From the NCBI GenBank assembly GCA_019359125.1, contig JAHHHY010000002.1:310001-374000 (forward strand): 64,000 nt of DNA. The letters run 5' to 3'. A program made the position numbers and the translations under genes. The notes below the pieces were generated by a model that was not told the origin of the DNA, made no database searches, and was given only the letters and a program-made list of their open reading frames with translations. Positions 43,869 to 50,152 of this stretch are shown here, in pieces; the stretch's first letter is position 1; every line of letters begins with the position of its first letter. The stretch comes from Pleurocapsa minor GSE-CHR-MK 17-07R (GTDB taxonomy: Bacteria > Chloroflexota > Anaerolineae > Aggregatilineales > Phototrophicaceae).

Positions 43869-44423
43869 GTGGTGCTGGCAGAACAGAAGCGCATCAGTTA
43901 CGACGAGTATGTGGCCTTCGTCAACAGGCCTGAAAATGCCGACCGCCTGTTTGAACTCATCGAAGGGAAATTTGTCGAGAAAATGGCCAGTTTTTCATCG
44001 TCCAAAGTGGCACTCAGGATCGGACAGAAGCTGCTGAATTATCTTGATCAGAATGAGATTGGATTTGCGACTGCGGCGGATGGTGGCTACATCATGCCTG
44101 ACGGGAATATCCTGATGCCCGATGTGGGTTACATCAGCCGCGAACGTATGCCAGAGCCGCCCGTACGCGAAGTGCCGATGCCGCCCGATCTGGCGGTTGA
44201 GGTGAAATCGCCCACCGACTCGACGTGGAAGCTGCGCGCCAAAGTGGACAAATATCTGGCGCATGGCACCCGGCTGGTGTGGATCATTTTCCCGGATGAG
44301 CAGCGCGCGGAAGTGTATGCCGCCGACGCCGAGGATCTGGTCGCCGTCGGGGCAGAAGGCGTGCTGGACGGCGGCGTGGTGCTGCCGGGCTTTTCGCTGC
44401 CCATGAAGGACATCTTCAGGTGA
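43869..44423 (+). CDS. Uma2-family (DUF820) PD-(D/E)XK protein, copy 2
   Basis: A 184-residue paralogue of the protein at 30638. The core has PPDLAVEVKSPTDS with the catalytic D, E-x-K arrangement intact (this copy has the Lys that copy 1 lacks). It is followed by K-V-D-K-Y-L-A-H-G-T-R-L-V-W-I-I and the LDGGVVLPGFSLPMKDIF ending. GTG start after AAGGAAGG. Its TGA overlaps the SDR start as GTGA. Confidence 0.9.
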   Translation: MVLAEQKRISYDEYVAFVNRPENADRLFELIEGKFVEKMASFSSSKVALRIGQKLLNYLDQNEIGFATAADGGYIMPDGNILMPDVGYISRERMPEPPVREVPMPPDLAVEVKSPTDSTWKLRAKVDKYLAHGTRLVWIIFPDEQRAEVYAADAEDLVAVGAEGVLDGGVVLPGFSLPMKDIFR

Positions 44424-45211
44424 GTTCAAACCAGGTGGTATTCATCACAGGCGCGTCTTCTGGCATCGGCTATGAGACGGCACTGGCGTTTGCCCGCGAG
44501 GGCTATAACGTGATCGCGACGGCGCGGCGCGTGGACCGGCTGGCCGCGCTGGAGACTGCGGTGCAGCAGCTGCCCACGGCCCACGGGGCGATTTTCTCCG
44601 TGGCTTGCGACGTGCGCGATCGGGCCGACATGGAGCGGGCTGTTGCACGCGGGCTGGAGCGCTTTGGCCGCATCGACGTGCTGGTGGCCAATGCCGGTGT
44701 GGGGCAGCGCGGCGCGCTGGTTGATTCCCCGTGGGACGATCTGGAGACGCTGCTGCGCACGAATATCGATGGCGTGCTGCACAGCATTCGCGCTGTCGTG
44801 CCGGTGATGCGGCGCGGCGGCGGCGGGCATATCGTGACGGTGTCGTCGGTCATCTATAACATGACCGCGCCGTATGCGGTCAGCTACAGCGCCAGCAAGT
44901 CATTTGTGAGCAGCCTGGCCAAATCGCTGCGTTATGAGCTGGAGCCGGACCACATCACGGTGAGCGACATGGTGATTGGCCGCACCGCGACTGAATTTGC
45001 CGAGAAGCGGCTGGGCGCGGCGGGCTACAGCGGCAAAGCGCCGCGCCTGCCGGTGATGTCTTCTGCCCAGGTGGCTGCGGGCATCGTGCGGGCGACGCAG
45101 CGCAAACAGAAGACGGTCATCCTGCGCTGGTTCGACCGGCTGATCCTGTGGGCCAACGCACTCATCCCTGGCGTCATCGCCCGCAACGCGATGAAAAGCT
45201 ACCGGGTGTGA
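44420..45211 (+). CDS. Short-chain dehydrogenase/reductase
   Basis: A 263-residue classical SDR. The cofactor loop is TGASSGIG at residues 10-17, NAG in VANAGVG, active-site Ser in VSSV (~142-143), and Y156-x-x-x-K160 in YSASK. The A-R-R-V-D-R after strand 2 indicates NADP preference. The C-terminal part (ILRWFDRLILWANALIPG) contains a hydrophobic helix seen in DltE/YqjQ-like SDRs. Substrate unknown. It starts with GTG inside the Uma2 stop, so the two are coupled. Confidence 0.9.
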   Translation: MSSNQVVFITGASSGIGYETALAFAREGYNVIATARRVDRLAALETAVQQLPTAHGAIFSVACDVRDRADMERAVARGLERFGRIDVLVANAGVGQRGALVDSPWDDLETLLRTNIDGVLHSIRAVVPVMRRGGGGHIVTVSSVIYNMTAPYAVSYSASKSFVSSLAKSLRYELEPDHITVSDMVIGRTATEFAEKRLGAAGYSGKAPRLPVMSSAQVAAGIVRATQRKQKTVILRWFDRLILWANALIPGVIARNAMKSYRV

Positions 45212-45240: not shown

Positions 45241-45333
45241 GCTCAGCAGAATTCGAAGCTGAGCAGGAGTCAAGCAAGTTTTGAATTGGCATATCGTATC
45301 CCCCTTCAAATATTCTTCGAGGGGATACGATAT
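45241..45333. repeat. Two adjacent hairpins at the 3' edge of the A+T-rich gene
   Basis: GCTCAGC/GCTGAGC (45241-45247 with 45258-45264, 10-nt loop), and 27 bp later ATATCGTATCCCC/GGGGATACGATAT (45291-45303 with 45321-45333, 17-nt loop), the second a perfect 13-bp inverted repeat. Neither has a T-run on the minus strand. They may be terminators for the converging genes, or the boundary of an inserted segment. Confidence 0.7.
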
Positions 45334-45345
45334 TTACTGAAAAGG

Positions 45346-47058
45346 TTAAAGAAGTTGATTAGTTGCTTCTATTTCCGCCACTGCGTTTTGAATCGTCAGA
45401 AGTAAGTTTGCTTTAAAGGGCATGAATCGATTTGCAGCCCATTCTATGAGGCCAGAAAGCTGGCTGTCTGAATCCTCTATACTACCTGGCGCATAGATTG
45501 CTATTCTACAAGCCCGTTTATTCTCCATACTTTCCCAACTCAAGGCTTCTCGTAAAGTATTTTCGAGATTTTGCCTATTTTCGATAATTCGATTAAATAT
45601 TGCTTTATTCTTGTTTTTCTCACCGCTATCTATGTATAGTTCTATCCTAAAGCGTCTGTCACTGGTGAAGGAAAGGCTAAAGACTCCAATTTGACTTTTG
45701 CCCGCGAATCTCACAGGCTCAACATTTATCCAGCTCTCCCCCGTAACTCTAATGGACTTGTTCAGACTTTGGTCGACTTCTAGAAATTTAGCCCGAATCT
45801 TTCGAAAGAACGTTTTGTACTTACGAGCACGTTCAGAAATTCGAGAAAACTCAACTTTTTGTAAATTGAAGTCGACGTGGCTTACTTTCCAATCAGCATT
45901 TAGCCATTGTTGGGACTGCACATGGCTCGTGTAGTCGTTGGCCCACCAGCTTCTATGTTCAAGAGCAGACTTTGGTAACGAGAATCCAAGTATTGCGTCG
46001 ATCTGCTCAAAAGTCACTGAAATACTTGCTGTGTCTTGGGTAATGGAACTAAGGAACTGGCCGAGAGGAAAATAGCGGCTTTGAGTCTCAGTTAAATCAT
46101 TTTGGATATTTGATTCGTTTAGCTTAATTGACTGCAATAGGTTTTCTCGTAGAATTTCAACAGCATTGCCACTATTTGGAACTGTATGATTAGTGAATAT
46201 TCTGGATGCGTATTGCAAGATTTGACGTTGTTCAGTCGTGACAGTACCTCTAAAGTGAGCCAACTGATTCCGAATTTCTCTAACTGAATCTAGAAGTCTA
46301 CGCAAATAATTCGCTTCGATTTTCAGGTTTTCACTGGCAATTGCCCAAATATCTTTAGATAGAAGCATATCTATATAGTTCGACATATTGAGTCTAGAAA
46401 AATTTGCACTATTTTTGTCACTTGGTGTAACTTTTTCCAATGCAGCCTCAATTTCTTCGTCGCTTAACTTTTTGACTGATTCTACGGCGGTCGTTTGGGC
46501 CAACATCCCAATTAGCCGACGCGTGTATTTTATCGACTCTGCTTTTCGGCTCTTGATACGTTCAGATAGTTCGTTCAGGAAAGTTTCCCATGAGCCAGGT
46601 CTGATTTGTTGTGCTGACCATGTAATATGATCTTTTAAAGCCTGCTCGATATCCTCTATCATGATTAAATCTATCGTCCGTTGCTTCAAAAAAGATGCCG
46701 CATCCCAAGAGGTTATTATTCCCAAGAGTTTGTTACTTGTATCTACAACCAATACTGCTGGAGACTCATGAAGATAGTCAAAAACTTCCAGAATGTTGTC
46801 ATCTGATGAGATTAGTCGAGCTTTATCAGTTACATGACTCACATGAAGATTATTCAAGCTTGCACCCATGTATACTTGTGCTCTCAGGATGCCTTCGGCT
46901 GTGACGATTCCATATTGTCTCCTGAAATGATCAACAATCGGCAACTGACTGTAATCATTCTCTAACATTATTTTTAAGGCCGTAAATGCGTCCATATCTT
47001 GACGACATGTGACAGGATCTTTGCGACCTGCAATTAGGTCAGATGCGGTAATTGCCAT
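45346..47058 (-). CDS. CBS / HEPN-like / DUF7662-like / DUF4268-like multidomain protein
   Basis: A 570-residue protein in A+T-rich DNA (one 60-base line, 45361-45420, has 25 G+C; a neighbour line, 44941-45000, has 37). Residues ~8-125 form a CBS pair (CRQDMDAFTALKIMLEN... and VLVVDTSNKLLGIITSWD), a nucleotide-sensing module. A helical region ~135-290 has E-I-R-N-Q-L-A-H-F-R-G, an Rx4H motif (R263, H268) as in HEPN RNase domains. Residues ~350-408 (LPKSALEHRSWWAND, then HVQSQQW, AGW-like NADWKV) resemble DUF7662. Residues ~425-560 (RIELYIDSGEKNKNKAIF) resemble DUF4268. Domain names other than CBS are from memory. AAAGGAA precedes the ATG; a weak -10 (TACAAT at 47090-47095) exists. Confidence 0.65.
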   Translation of the reverse strand: MAITASDLIAGRKDPVTCRQDMDAFTALKIMLENDYSQLPIVDHFRRQYGIVTAEGILRAQVYMGASLNNLHVSHVTDKARLISSDDNILEVFDYLHESPAVLVVDTSNKLLGIITSWDAASFLKQRTIDLIMIEDIEQALKDHITWSAQQIRPGSWETFLNELSERIKSRKAESIKYTRRLIGMLAQTTAVESVKKLSDEEIEAALEKVTPSDKNSANFSRLNMSNYIDMLLSKDIWAIASENLKIEANYLRRLLDSVREIRNQLAHFRGTVTTEQRQILQYASRIFTNHTVPNSGNAVEILRENLLQSIKLNESNIQNDLTETQSRYFPLGQFLSSITQDTASISVTFEQIDAILGFSLPKSALEHRSWWANDYTSHVQSQQWLNADWKVSHVDFNLQKVEFSRISERARKYKTFFRKIRAKFLEVDQSLNKSIRVTGESWINVEPVRFAGKSQIGVFSLSFTSDRRFRIELYIDSGEKNKNKAIFNRIIENRQNLENTLREALSWESMENKRACRIAIYAPGSIEDSDSQLSGLIEWAANRFMPFKANLLLTIQNAVAEIEATNQLL

Positions 47059-47098: not shown

Positions 47099-48808
47099 TT
47101 AGCTTGTTGCCAGCGGCAGCCGCACCGTAAACGTCGTCCCTACGCCCATCGTGCTGACAAACGAGATCGTGCCGCCGTGCAGCTCCACATTTTCGCGCAC
47201 GATGGCCAGCCCCAGGCCAGTGCCCTCAATCTGGCTGGCATTCGCCGCCCGGTGGAATGGCTCAAACAGGCGTGCCTGGTCTTCCGGGGGGATGCCCATG
47301 CCGTGATCTTCCACGTCGATGACCAGCTCGGCGGCGACTGAGCGCACGCGCAGCGTCACCACTGAGTCGTCCGGCGAATATTTCAGCGCATTCGTCAGCA
47401 GGTTCAGCAGGATGTGCTGCAACAGGCGGTCGTCCACCGGCACCAGCCCGATGTCATCATGAACAAACGCAATCGTGCGCGCAGTGCCTCGTCCCACCCT
47501 GGCCTGTTCGACCAGGTTGTGGCACAGCCGGACGACATCCTGCGGGCTGGGCGAAAAGCGGTCACGCGCATGCTGAAGCCGGTTCAGCGTCAGCACCTGG
47601 TCCATCAGCGTCTTCATGCCCAGCGCGCTGTTCAGAATCTGGCTGACGCGCTCCTGCCGTTTCGTCTCGTCGATGCGGTCGCCATACAGGCGCAGAATTT
47701 CACCAGACGAGGTGATGACCGCCAGCGGTGTGCGAAACTCGTGCGAGACCGTCGAGATAAAACGCTCTTTCAGGGCCACCAGCTCCTGTTCCTTGCGTAT
47801 TTCTGCCTGCATGACTTCGTATTTCAGTCGGCTGGCTTCCAGCTCCACCCGCTCGGTTGCATCACGCAGATTGACGACGACCGCGCTGATGCCGGGGTCG
47901 TCCATCATGTTGGTCGCCAGCACGTCCACCCAGCGCCACGACCCATCCTTGTGCAACGCTCTGAAGCTTGCCTTGACCGTCTCTGCGGGATGCTTGCTGA
48001 TTTCCATGAACACTTCGGTCACGTACGCCACATCATCCGGGTAGACCAGCTTCAGGTCGCGCACGCCGATCAGGTCCTTTTCGGTATAGCCGAGGATGCG
48101 CTGCACCGACGGGGTCATATAGCTCACGACCAGTTCATAGTCGATCAGCAGGATGCCGTCGTGCGAGTGCTCCACCATCGAGCGAAAGCGGCGCTCTGCC
48201 TGTGCCAGTCGCTGCTCGTTGGTATGGATTTCGCTGAGCGAGAGATCAAATGTGCGTGACGTGACGAAAACAATGAAGAAGATAAGCACAAACTGGCCTA
48301 ACAGCACCGAGAATGAATCGATGCGTGTGAACGCAGGTTCCTGAAGCGCACCGGAGATATCGAGTGCAAATACGCCGATCGCGGTCAGCAGGATCAGCCC
48401 GCTGACGATGATCGCTGATTTGCGCTGCAAGACCAGCATCGCCACCAGAATGGCCAGGCCAAAGTAGGTGTAACCTGCCGTGGTCACCCCGCCAAACAAG
48501 ACAGACATCCCGGCTACCGTAAACCAGATCAGGCAGGTCACGATCCATGCAGCAGCGCGCACCTGGCCGCGTTTCAGCAGCAGGATACCGGTGATGCCAA
48601 TCAGCAGCCCCAGGCTGATCAGCGCGTAAGTGGCCATCTGCCCGCTCTGCTGAAGCAGCAGCGTCACCAGCAGCTGAAAGACGCTGATGAGCAGGATGGC
48701 ATACAGGATGCCAGCCGTCAGGGCGAGCGTCTGTCGCTCACGCGGGGAAGTTACAGGCGGCAGTGCCAGTATCTGGCGCAGGGTGGTGCGGTAGGACATC
48801 GGGTTCAT
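47099..48808 (-). CDS. Membrane PAS sensor histidine kinase
   Basis: A 569-residue kinase: about six N-terminal membrane helices (~30-185), a PAS domain (~205-320, with DGILLIDYELVVSYMTPSVQ), a coiled linker, HisKA with the phosphoacceptor His ~356 (STVSHEFRTPL), and a HATPase_c domain with N-box LLNLLTNALKYS and G-boxes DHGMGIP and GTGLGLAI. No response regulator is adjacent, so its partner lies elsewhere. A TATACT box (48844-48849, minus strand) lies about 35 bp before the start. The A+T-rich CBS/HEPN gene is 40 bp downstream on the same strand. Confidence 0.95.
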   Translation of the reverse strand: MNPMSYRTTLRQILALPPVTSPRERQTLALTAGILYAILLISVFQLLVTLLLQQSGQMATYALISLGLLIGITGILLLKRGQVRAAAWIVTCLIWFTVAGMSVLFGGVTTAGYTYFGLAILVAMLVLQRKSAIIVSGLILLTAIGVFALDISGALQEPAFTRIDSFSVLLGQFVLIFFIVFVTSRTFDLSLSEIHTNEQRLAQAERRFRSMVEHSHDGILLIDYELVVSYMTPSVQRILGYTEKDLIGVRDLKLVYPDDVAYVTEVFMEISKHPAETVKASFRALHKDGSWRWVDVLATNMMDDPGISAVVVNLRDATERVELEASRLKYEVMQAEIRKEQELVALKERFISTVSHEFRTPLAVITSSGEILRLYGDRIDETKRQERVSQILNSALGMKTLMDQVLTLNRLQHARDRFSPSPQDVVRLCHNLVEQARVGRGTARTIAFVHDDIGLVPVDDRLLQHILLNLLTNALKYSPDDSVVTLRVRSVAAELVIDVEDHGMGIPPEDQARLFEPFHRAANASQIEGTGLGLAIVRENVELHGGTISFVSTMGVGTTFTVRLPLATS

Positions 48809-48946: not shown

Positions 48947-50122
48947 CTACTCCACTGCCGACCATTGAATCAGATGATCGGTCTCGAAGCGCAGGATTTG
49001 CATCTCGTTGGTCTCAACCGTTAGCAGCACGGGATATCCGTCATACAGAAACGCAAACCGTTCAGAATCGGGTGACCACACAATGCGTCTGGCAAACGGG
49101 CCTCTGTCAAATCCAGACCCGCTGGCGTGCACCATCTCAAAGCACAGGTCGTTAATCGTACGATTTGCAACATCAGCCAGAAACAGGAAGTTATCCACCA
49201 CAAACGTGAAGTAGTTTCCGTCTGGTGAAATCGCTATGGACTCCATACGGCCGCTGAAAGGAGTGATCAGTTCCAATTGCTGTCCATCACGATCATACAG
49301 TGCGAGCTGCGAGCGCAGATCATCATTCGGCACCTGTATCGCGCTGAGAAACTGCGAGGAGTCTGGCATCCAGTACAGTGCTGCGCGTGCTTCAGGAAGT
49401 TCGGCAATGATCTGGTCGTTTTCAATATCGTAAAGTCTGGGAGGATAATTCTCACGGAAATTGTACTCAAGCGCGCGTGTAAAATCGGGCGAAAAACTCC
49501 TGAGATAGACTAGTGGTGTGTTTTTCTCCCAGCTTTCAAGGCTTTCTGTGAATGCATTGACAATACCAATAGAACTGGGCGGTATGAAACGTTCGTTATC
49601 CACCCAGTAGATTTGTCCAAGTGCTGATGACTGGGCACCTCCACCTGCGCTACTGAAAGCGAACGCATTACCAATGGTTTCAATGTCTGCCAGCCTGATT
49701 GTCGTCGGATTGGGTCCGGTGGTCGCTACTTCGATGGCATCAACACCGTAAGTGTTGTCACCAAAGGAATTTACCGAAAAGTTCATACTCCCAATTGGGT
49801 ATGCAAAGTACCGGCCGTCTGGTGAGAATCCGCCGGCTTCGGCAAAGACATTGCTGCCTTCCAACGCCAGAAAATAGGATGTGCTCACATCAGCGCGAAT
49901 CGCTCGGACGCCCTCTGAATTGGCATTGAAGATGGCCCCTTCAAAGTCCCATTGGGTTTGCGGGATGGTTGGATAGGGGAGGGGGCCCAGGCACGATTCA
50001 GAGACAGGCCAGCCTGCCGCTGGATTTGTATTCTGTGCCCATGCAGACATCGAACCGGGAATGAGCGCGCACAGCCCGGCGGCCAGTGTCAAGCGACGCA
50101 GATTCACAGACCACTTTGTCAT
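48947..50122 (-). CDS. Secreted TolB/WD40-like beta-propeller protein
   Basis: A 391-residue exported protein. A signal peptide (RRLTLAAGLCALIPGSMSAWAQ) is followed by ~360 residues rich in propeller-like repeats, each a S-P-D-G/S-x-R-F-A-F-type blade: AGGFSPDGRYFAYP, AISPDGNYFTFVVD, VWSPDSERFAFLYD and PDSSQFLSAIQ. These resemble TolB/PD40 repeats. Cys 38-like and a later Cys could pair. No catalytic residues are seen. ATG 50122 follows CGGAGAAC; the upstream ATG at 50152 would place charged residues before the signal. Function unknown. Confidence 0.7.
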   Translation of the reverse strand: MTKWSVNLRRLTLAAGLCALIPGSMSAWAQNTNPAAGWPVSESCLGPLPYPTIPQTQWDFEGAIFNANSEGVRAIRADVSTSYFLALEGSNVFAEAGGFSPDGRYFAYPIGSMNFSVNSFGDNTYGVDAIEVATTGPNPTTIRLADIETIGNAFAFSSAGGGAQSSALGQIYWVDNERFIPPSSIGIVNAFTESLESWEKNTPLVYLRSFSPDFTRALEYNFRENYPPRLYDIENDQIIAELPEARAALYWMPDSSQFLSAIQVPNDDLRSQLALYDRDGQQLELITPFSGRMESIAISPDGNYFTFVVDNFLFLADVANRTINDLCFEMVHASGSGFDRGPFARRIVWSPDSERFAFLYDGYPVLLTVETNEMQILRFETDHLIQWSAVE

Positions 50123-50152
50123 CAATGTTCTCCGGATATTTTCTCGAAGCAC

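Follow-up and report, generated by a model that had tools for sequence, protein, structure and literature searches.

A CBS–HEPN protein with a DUF7662–DUF4268 tail, distantly related to the anti-phage protein DS-11, is a candidate defence RNase in a Chloroflexota genome

CBS–HEPN fusions were predicted in 2013 to be nucleotide-regulated RNases (PMC3710099), and in 2026 one such protein, DS-11, was described as a one-protein anti-phage system that is protective in E. coli, that loses defence upon the Y157A substitution in its CBS part or upon mutation of the HEPN catalytic residues, and that was proposed to bind an adenine derivative (PMC13092281). A precedent for HEPN inside restriction operons is PrrC (PMC3710099), and DUF4268 is found in many GmrSD proteins (PMC4619093). 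Here, we compare with these systems a gene from a 64,000-nucleotide stretch of contig JAHHHY010000002.1 of Pleurocapsa minor GSE-CHR-MK 17-07R (the window). The original prediction, made from the sequence, had placed a 570-residue protein at 45346-47058; open reading frame listing and translation recovered exactly this frame, uninterrupted by internal stops, and added that it lies on the minus strand. The features of the locus are as follows.

45346..47058, minus strand: whole gene, CBS pair, HEPN, DUF7662 and DUF4268, 570 aa
46675..47058, minus strand: CBS pair (Bateman module), residues 1-128; Pfam PF00571 (1.8e-17) and fold match
46951..46953, minus strand: codon of Y36 (NDYSQLP), counterpart of DS-11 Y157 (HDYSQLP) in the alignment with E. 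coli DS-11
46174..46674, minus strand: HEPN domain, residues 129-295; sub-cut-off profile matches, AF2 model and AbiF fold match
46255..46272, minus strand: predicted catalytic motif R263-N264-Q-L-A-H268; R, N and H invariant
45841..46080, minus strand: DUF7662, residues 327-406; Pfam PF24698 (9.7e-13)
45379..45840, minus strand: DUF4268, residues 407-560; Pfam PF14088 (5.7e-14) and PADLOC PDC-S11 (9e-19)
45291..45333, no strand assigned: perfect 13-bp inverted repeat (loop of 17 nt) where the two genes converge

The CBS, DUF7662-like and DUF4268-like parts that had been recognized from the sequence were all recovered by Pfam above the curated cut-offs, with E-values of 1.8e-17 for the CBS pair, 9.7e-13 for DUF7662 (residues 332-400) and 5.7e-14 for DUF4268 (residues 415-550); Pfam returned no match to an ABC ATPase, DUF262 or DUF1524 in the protein. 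By fold, too, the CBS pair resembles CBS pairs that bind ligands (VIA Z up to 16.7). Among 19 aligned tail-bearing homologues, the second CBS repeat always has T116 and D119 in its GIITxxD motif, Y or F occupies position 36 in 18, the WWxND block as well as W385 and W390 of DUF7662 are invariant, and DUF4268 retains R471, W508 and R518 in all 19 and E473 in 18. The best PDB sequence match is MJ0100, a CBS pair whose structure contains methylthioadenosine and SAM, and we therefore considered SAM or its breakdown product as the ligand; at 24% identity, however, the match is too distant to support such an assignment.

The protein matches the NCBIfam model DS11_antiphage (NF053863) with an E-value of 2.1e-28 at 99.3 bits, which misses the curated cut-off of 260. 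We located E. coli DS-11 itself (locus L152, 365 aa), which scores 404.9 bits on the same model and in which, counted from the ATG, the tyrosine of HDYSQLP is residue 157 exactly. Aligned to residues 16-293 of the window protein, the two sequences are 23.6% identical over 280 columns, and because Y157, R330 and H335 of DS-11 fall on Y36, R263 and H268, residues critical to the function of a tested defence protein are retained. We conclude from the score that the window protein is a distant relative of DS-11 and not a DS-11 member.

The helical region had originally been assigned to HEPN by an Rx4H motif, and R263 and H268 are indeed at the positions given. The motif alone is no evidence, because shuffled versions of the protein contain 0.68 such motifs on average (at least one in 52% of shuffles), and a second Rx4H lies at 286. 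By motif, the assignment rests instead on conservation: neither the 19 tail-bearing homologues in our alignment nor the 38 aligned CBS–HEPN cores show any change at R, N or H, full-length homologues from Chloroflexota, Cyanobacteriota and Myxococcota retain RNxxxH, and RNQLAH has the form typical of the HEPN superfamily (a conserved Rx4-6H with a polar residue after R). In profile searches, the region stays under every curated Pfam cut-off (best Abi_2, 20.2 against 25.6 bits); the best Pfam matches of the cut-out core are all HEPN families (Abi_2, 0.0008; RiboL-PSP-HEPN, 0.0013; Csm6-HEPN, 0.005; Swt1-HEPN, 0.015), Swt1-HEPN is matched by 25 of 38 homologous cores, and the good weak matches of residues 129-295 are mostly HEPN (Abi_2, Csm6-HEPN and DRT-associated HEPN). 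The AF2 model of the domain is all helical and aligns with AbiF (8vz6_A) at VIA Z 7.4 and an rmsd of 5.9 over 122 residues, a weak score for a helical bundle. When the HEPN alignment was searched as a profile against the PDB, only CBS and chance matches came up, and fold searches with the whole model were filled by CBS structures and uninformative on the other parts.

Foldseek with the model of residues 130-570 (pLDDT 84.8), a check proposed for residues 130-290 and 345-570, returned nothing at E <0.001; a second look yielded a series of matches for DUF4268. Along its whole length, the DUF4268 model resembles type III secretion chaperones and YbjN proteins (Spa15, 1ry9, Z 9.1 and rmsd 3.7 over 128 residues; DR_1245, Z 8.9; YbjN, Z 8.1; many others between 6 and 8). 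These scores are moderate, one superfamily fills most of the match list, and no nuclease is among the matches listed. We thus predict for DUF4268 the fold of secretion chaperones and YbjN and not that of a nuclease. Secretion chaperones and YbjN proteins bind other proteins or dimerise. For DUF7662, the best conserved domain (median pair identity 48%) and one that frequently stands in small open frames, neither fold search gave a structural match, from which it does not follow that the fold is new.

The C-terminal domains had been described as known mostly from hypothetical and nuclease-associated proteins; the tail parts do occur with nucleases, and the predicted fold of DUF4268 is that of a chaperone/YbjN protein. 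We considered that the tail might be the weapon, with DUF4268, possibly together with DUF7662, being a nuclease that attacks phage DNA and HEPN an accessory. Such a role would agree with DUF4268 being part of the PADLOC candidate PDC-S11 and of the GmrSD proteins mentioned above and with a 279-aa frame (L009) in which, as judged by eye only, DUF7662 is followed by a GIY-YIG-like stretch. However, the DUF4268 model resembles Spa15 and DR_1245, the D..ExQ-like motif in the PDC-S11 relatives L006 and L019 is in the N-terminal half ahead of DUF4268, and CBS–HEPN proteins exist that have no tail (DS-11 and the haloarchaeal L032-L034), so that we regard a nuclease tail as very improbable. Assignment of DUF4268 to the PD-(D/E)XK nucleases was likewise dropped, given the chaperone/YbjN matches and the position of the PDC-S11 nuclease-like motif outside DUF4268. 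Tail parts that travel among nucleases are what one would expect if the tail serves in recognition or docking. Our literature search found no paper on DUF7662 and none joining CBS–HEPN with DUF4268. In two Ktedonobacter loci (L080:9236-10738 and L081:9224-10723), DUF7662–DUF4268 stands behind an unrelated N-terminal part of 270 aa without a library match.

By tblastn and profile searches, homologues with all four parts were found in Chloroflexota, Cyanobacteriota, a Myxococcales MAG and on an Anabaena plasmid. Other forms comprise CBS–HEPN with DUF7662 only (L004, L050/L078), tandem (CBS–HEPN)x2 (L041, L043-L047), HARE-HTH fused ahead of CBS–HEPN (L039:1216-2748), CBS–HEPN with other C-terminal parts (L037, L038), and stand-alone CBS–HEPN on haloarchaeal plasmids (L032-L034; L032 scores 121 bits on the DS-11 model), which are possibly the smallest form of the family. 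In a tree of the cores, the window protein groups with L074 (100/98), DS-11 and the haloarchaeal and HARE forms are in a different group (97/92), and the tail-bearing cores fall into two groups, one of which also contains tandem forms. Two copies appear to be broken: in L031:5343-7329 on the Anabaena sp. 90 plasmid pANA01, the first CBS part is in a different frame, and in L082:9977-11742 of Ktedonobacter SOSP1-85, a frame change splits the HEPN part. As a separate observation, the tandem genes L108:7567-11574, L109:4240-8198, L110:480-4474 and L115:7832-11916 adjoin a gene for a protein of 748-766 aa, with an overlap of 4-60 bp or a gap of 21 bp, a pairing repeated in several Anaerolineae genomes; the two partners scanned (L110, L115) appear secreted and match the putative HExxH metalloprotease family MXAN_6640 at 39-43 bits, below the cut-off.

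To describe the genomic context, we used ~20 loci in which a CBS–HEPN–DUF7662(–DUF4268) gene has readable surroundings. Type I restriction-modification (RM) genes lie within 10 kb in six of them, and in four the gene is inside the operon: in the order HsdM1-[gene]-HsdM2-HsdS-HsdR in L069 and L074, as HsdM1-[gene]-HsdM2 near a contig end in L102, and as HsdR..HsdS-171 aa-[gene]-HsdM in L079, with reading frames that overlap or sit a few bases apart in all four. In L078, the gene follows HsdS/HsdR genes, in L070 it faces Hsd genes, and in L071 its immediate predecessors are a GmrSD-type gene and a DNA methylase. Because HsdM_N occurs only about once per 4 Mb in the class (~90 matches in 100 class genomes), an association in 5 of 18 is far above chance, with binomial probabilities of 2.5e-8 at p=0.005 and 2e-5 at p=0.02 when related operons are treated as independent. 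The two HsdM genes that enclose the CBS–HEPN gene in L069:1714-10651, L074:1900-11460 and L102:5450-10069 are ~50% identical to each other. Looking for defence genes beside homologues had been proposed as a check; the RM-associated loci have them, most homologue loci are without Hsd genes, some are beside ordinary genes, and two cyanobacterial homologues adjoin aconitase.

Comparison of two of these operons pointed to an exchange within the gene. Between L069 and L102, HsdM1 and HsdM2 are 87% and 86% identical, and within the gene identity is 28% for CBS, 32% for HEPN, 60% for DUF7662 and 81% for DUF4268. At the DNA level, identity is ~0.8 in HsdM1, ~0.5 from the gene start (L069 3180-4400) and back to ~0.7-0.8 inside DUF7662 and beyond. 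Two Herpetosiphon copies display a milder version of this pattern (66/46/69/88%). The simplest reading, which rests on these two pairs, is that the sensor–nuclease half has been replaced, with breakpoints at the gene start and the conserved WWxND block, and that the tail stays with the operon. We speculate that DUF7662–DUF4268 might be a portable chaperone-fold tail that reads a particular signal of infection or attaches to a restriction complex, with exchangeable effectors (CBS–HEPN, PDC-S11, GmrSD and others), and that in type I operons CBS–HEPN is a swappable cassette; we hold this only tentatively. If true, a swappable CBS–HEPN before a constant tail would allow the trigger ligand to be changed while the restriction system is left unchanged.

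Both the position within (L069, L074, L102, L079) or near (L078, L070) Hsd operons and the conservation of the tail together with HsdM while the core is swapped would also be expected of a PrrC-like guard, i.e. a type I restriction companion that the Hsd complex keeps inactive and sets free upon inhibition of restriction by a phage; the window copy would then be a stray. However, Hsd genes are missing at most homologue loci, DS-11 is active in E. coli as a single gene, and the genome from which the window derives has no match to N6_Mtase/HsdM in a search whose control was positive in 13 of 14 genomes. We consider a guard of this kind rather unlikely, and in the absence of HsdM the window protein must act alone or with another partner.

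In the window, the gene has no defence neighbour and no type I RM operon. A gene for a PAS histidine kinase (47099-48808, same strand) lies upstream at a 40-bp gap and a convergent SDR gene (44420-45211) downstream at a 134-bp gap, so that, as originally noted, no antitoxin is adjacent; a search of the locus for an RNA antitoxin gave no RNA family and no tandem repeat array. The absence of an antitoxin fits DS-11, which needs none. The ribosome site of the gene is plausible, and promoter-like sites around it do not exceed chance level. The inverted repeat at 45291..45333 is probably a terminator common to both convergent genes; the terminator scan did not return it. Beyond the SDR gene and overlapping it lies what we take to be a Uma2-like gene (43869-44423), a pair that is kept in the same-genus relative G679.

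The A+T-richness of the gene is evident: its GC is 0.403 and its GC3 0.368 compared to a GC3 of 0.54-0.83 in six neighbours, and the two 1-kb bins with the gene have 39-47% GC against ~62% for the window. It had been called unlike every neighbour, which is almost correct; the gene at 48947-50152 is also somewhat low in GC (0.516). In two same-genus genomes, G343 and G679, the order dnaK-grpE ... SDR ... glycosyltransferase is kept and both the CBS–HEPN–tail gene and the adjacent kinase gene are absent from the same place. Composition and this absence support the original suggestion that the gene was acquired and fit the gain of a single gene, although both relatives might instead have lost it. 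We found no convincing flanking direct repeats of an insertion at the locus. In 12 of 13 other homologue loci, GC of the gene is likewise below that of the flanks. Searches of viral and phage collections gave no full-length homologue and one archaeal provirus with DUF4268 only, so that the case for mobility comes from composition and synteny only.

CBS pairs often sense AMP/ATP, and the protein might serve not in defence but as a stress regulator, trimming RNA in response to shifts in the adenylate energy state. The orphan position in the window and the cyanobacterial homologues beside aconitase would suit this role, as would the general nucleotide-regulated RNA decay proposed for CBS–HEPN proteins (PMC3710099). 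Against it argue the patchy spread, the GC below flanks in nearly all homologues, the restriction-operon placement, the rapid swapping of cores and the DS-11 precedent, and we give a stress regulator only a slim chance.

We propose instead, as the probable function, that the window protein is a one-protein ligand-gated HEPN RNase that protects against phages, most likely via shutdown of the infected cell, with a tail that docks or recognises. At rest, HEPN would be kept inactive by the tail together with the CBS pair, which is probably a dimer. Infection would alter a small adenine-containing ligand that the CBS pair reads around Y36 and T116/D119, and/or the DUF7662–DUF4268 tail would read a cue; two HEPN domains would then pair, and R263, N264 and H268 would cut RNA. 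The tail would be a docking or recognition module, which in relatives would link the RNase with type I restriction operons, where it would, like PrrC, serve as a backup once restriction fails. The initial idea of a sensor-plus-toxin defence effector with a nucleotide trigger is supported by homology to DS-11 and by the RM contexts of relatives, although no defence gene adjoins the gene in the window. More generally, these data extend one tested CBS–HEPN protein to a wide modular family with tail-less, DUF7662-only, DUF7662–DUF4268 and tandem forms in Chloroflexota, Cyanobacteriota, Myxococcota and haloarchaea, and suggest a predicted fold for DUF4268, an unknown-function domain of several restriction and defence proteins. 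The natural chimaeras, in which one operon carries different CBS–HEPN halves, make the CBS ligand and the tail partner directly testable.

Compared to known systems, the window protein shares with DS-11 the CBS pair followed by HEPN, the DYSQLP tyrosine, RNxxxH and the single gene; DS-11 differs in an N-terminal region of its own (~115 aa) and in ending after HEPN, whereas the window protein starts at the CBS pair and continues with the DUF7662–DUF4268 tail. The CBS–HEPN proteins of the 2013 census (Swt1/Abi2 class, e.g. alr3009 with HD) rest on the same concept, a CBS sensor joined to a predicted RxxxxH HEPN RNase, but no DUF7662–DUF4268 tail is mentioned for them. PrrC, an anticodon nuclease in a type I RM operon, is likewise a HEPN protein, and relatives of the window protein are also RM-encoded; in PrrC, an ABC ATPase does the gating and the gene keeps its Hsd partners, whereas the window protein has CBS domains and no Hsd in its genome. 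The PADLOC defence candidate PDC-S11 shares the C-terminal DUF4268 (9e-19) but has a D..ExQ nuclease-like N-terminal half in place of CBS–HEPN–DUF7662, and only residues 405-561 match its models. GmrSD proteins similarly carry DUF4268 on a restriction effector (PMC4619093), whose DUF262/DUF1524 is absent here. AbiF/Abi_2 provides the closest solved HEPN by fold (8vz6) and the best Pfam HEPN match; AbiF is bound by a non-coding RNA, and none was found at the window gene. The locus had been put forward as the best candidate for an undescribed system. This does not hold for the core, which is known from the CBS–HEPN fusions of 2013 (PMC3710099) and from DS-11 (PMC13092281), and we conclude that the core mechanism is already known while the architecture with its tail and the placement in restriction operons are new.
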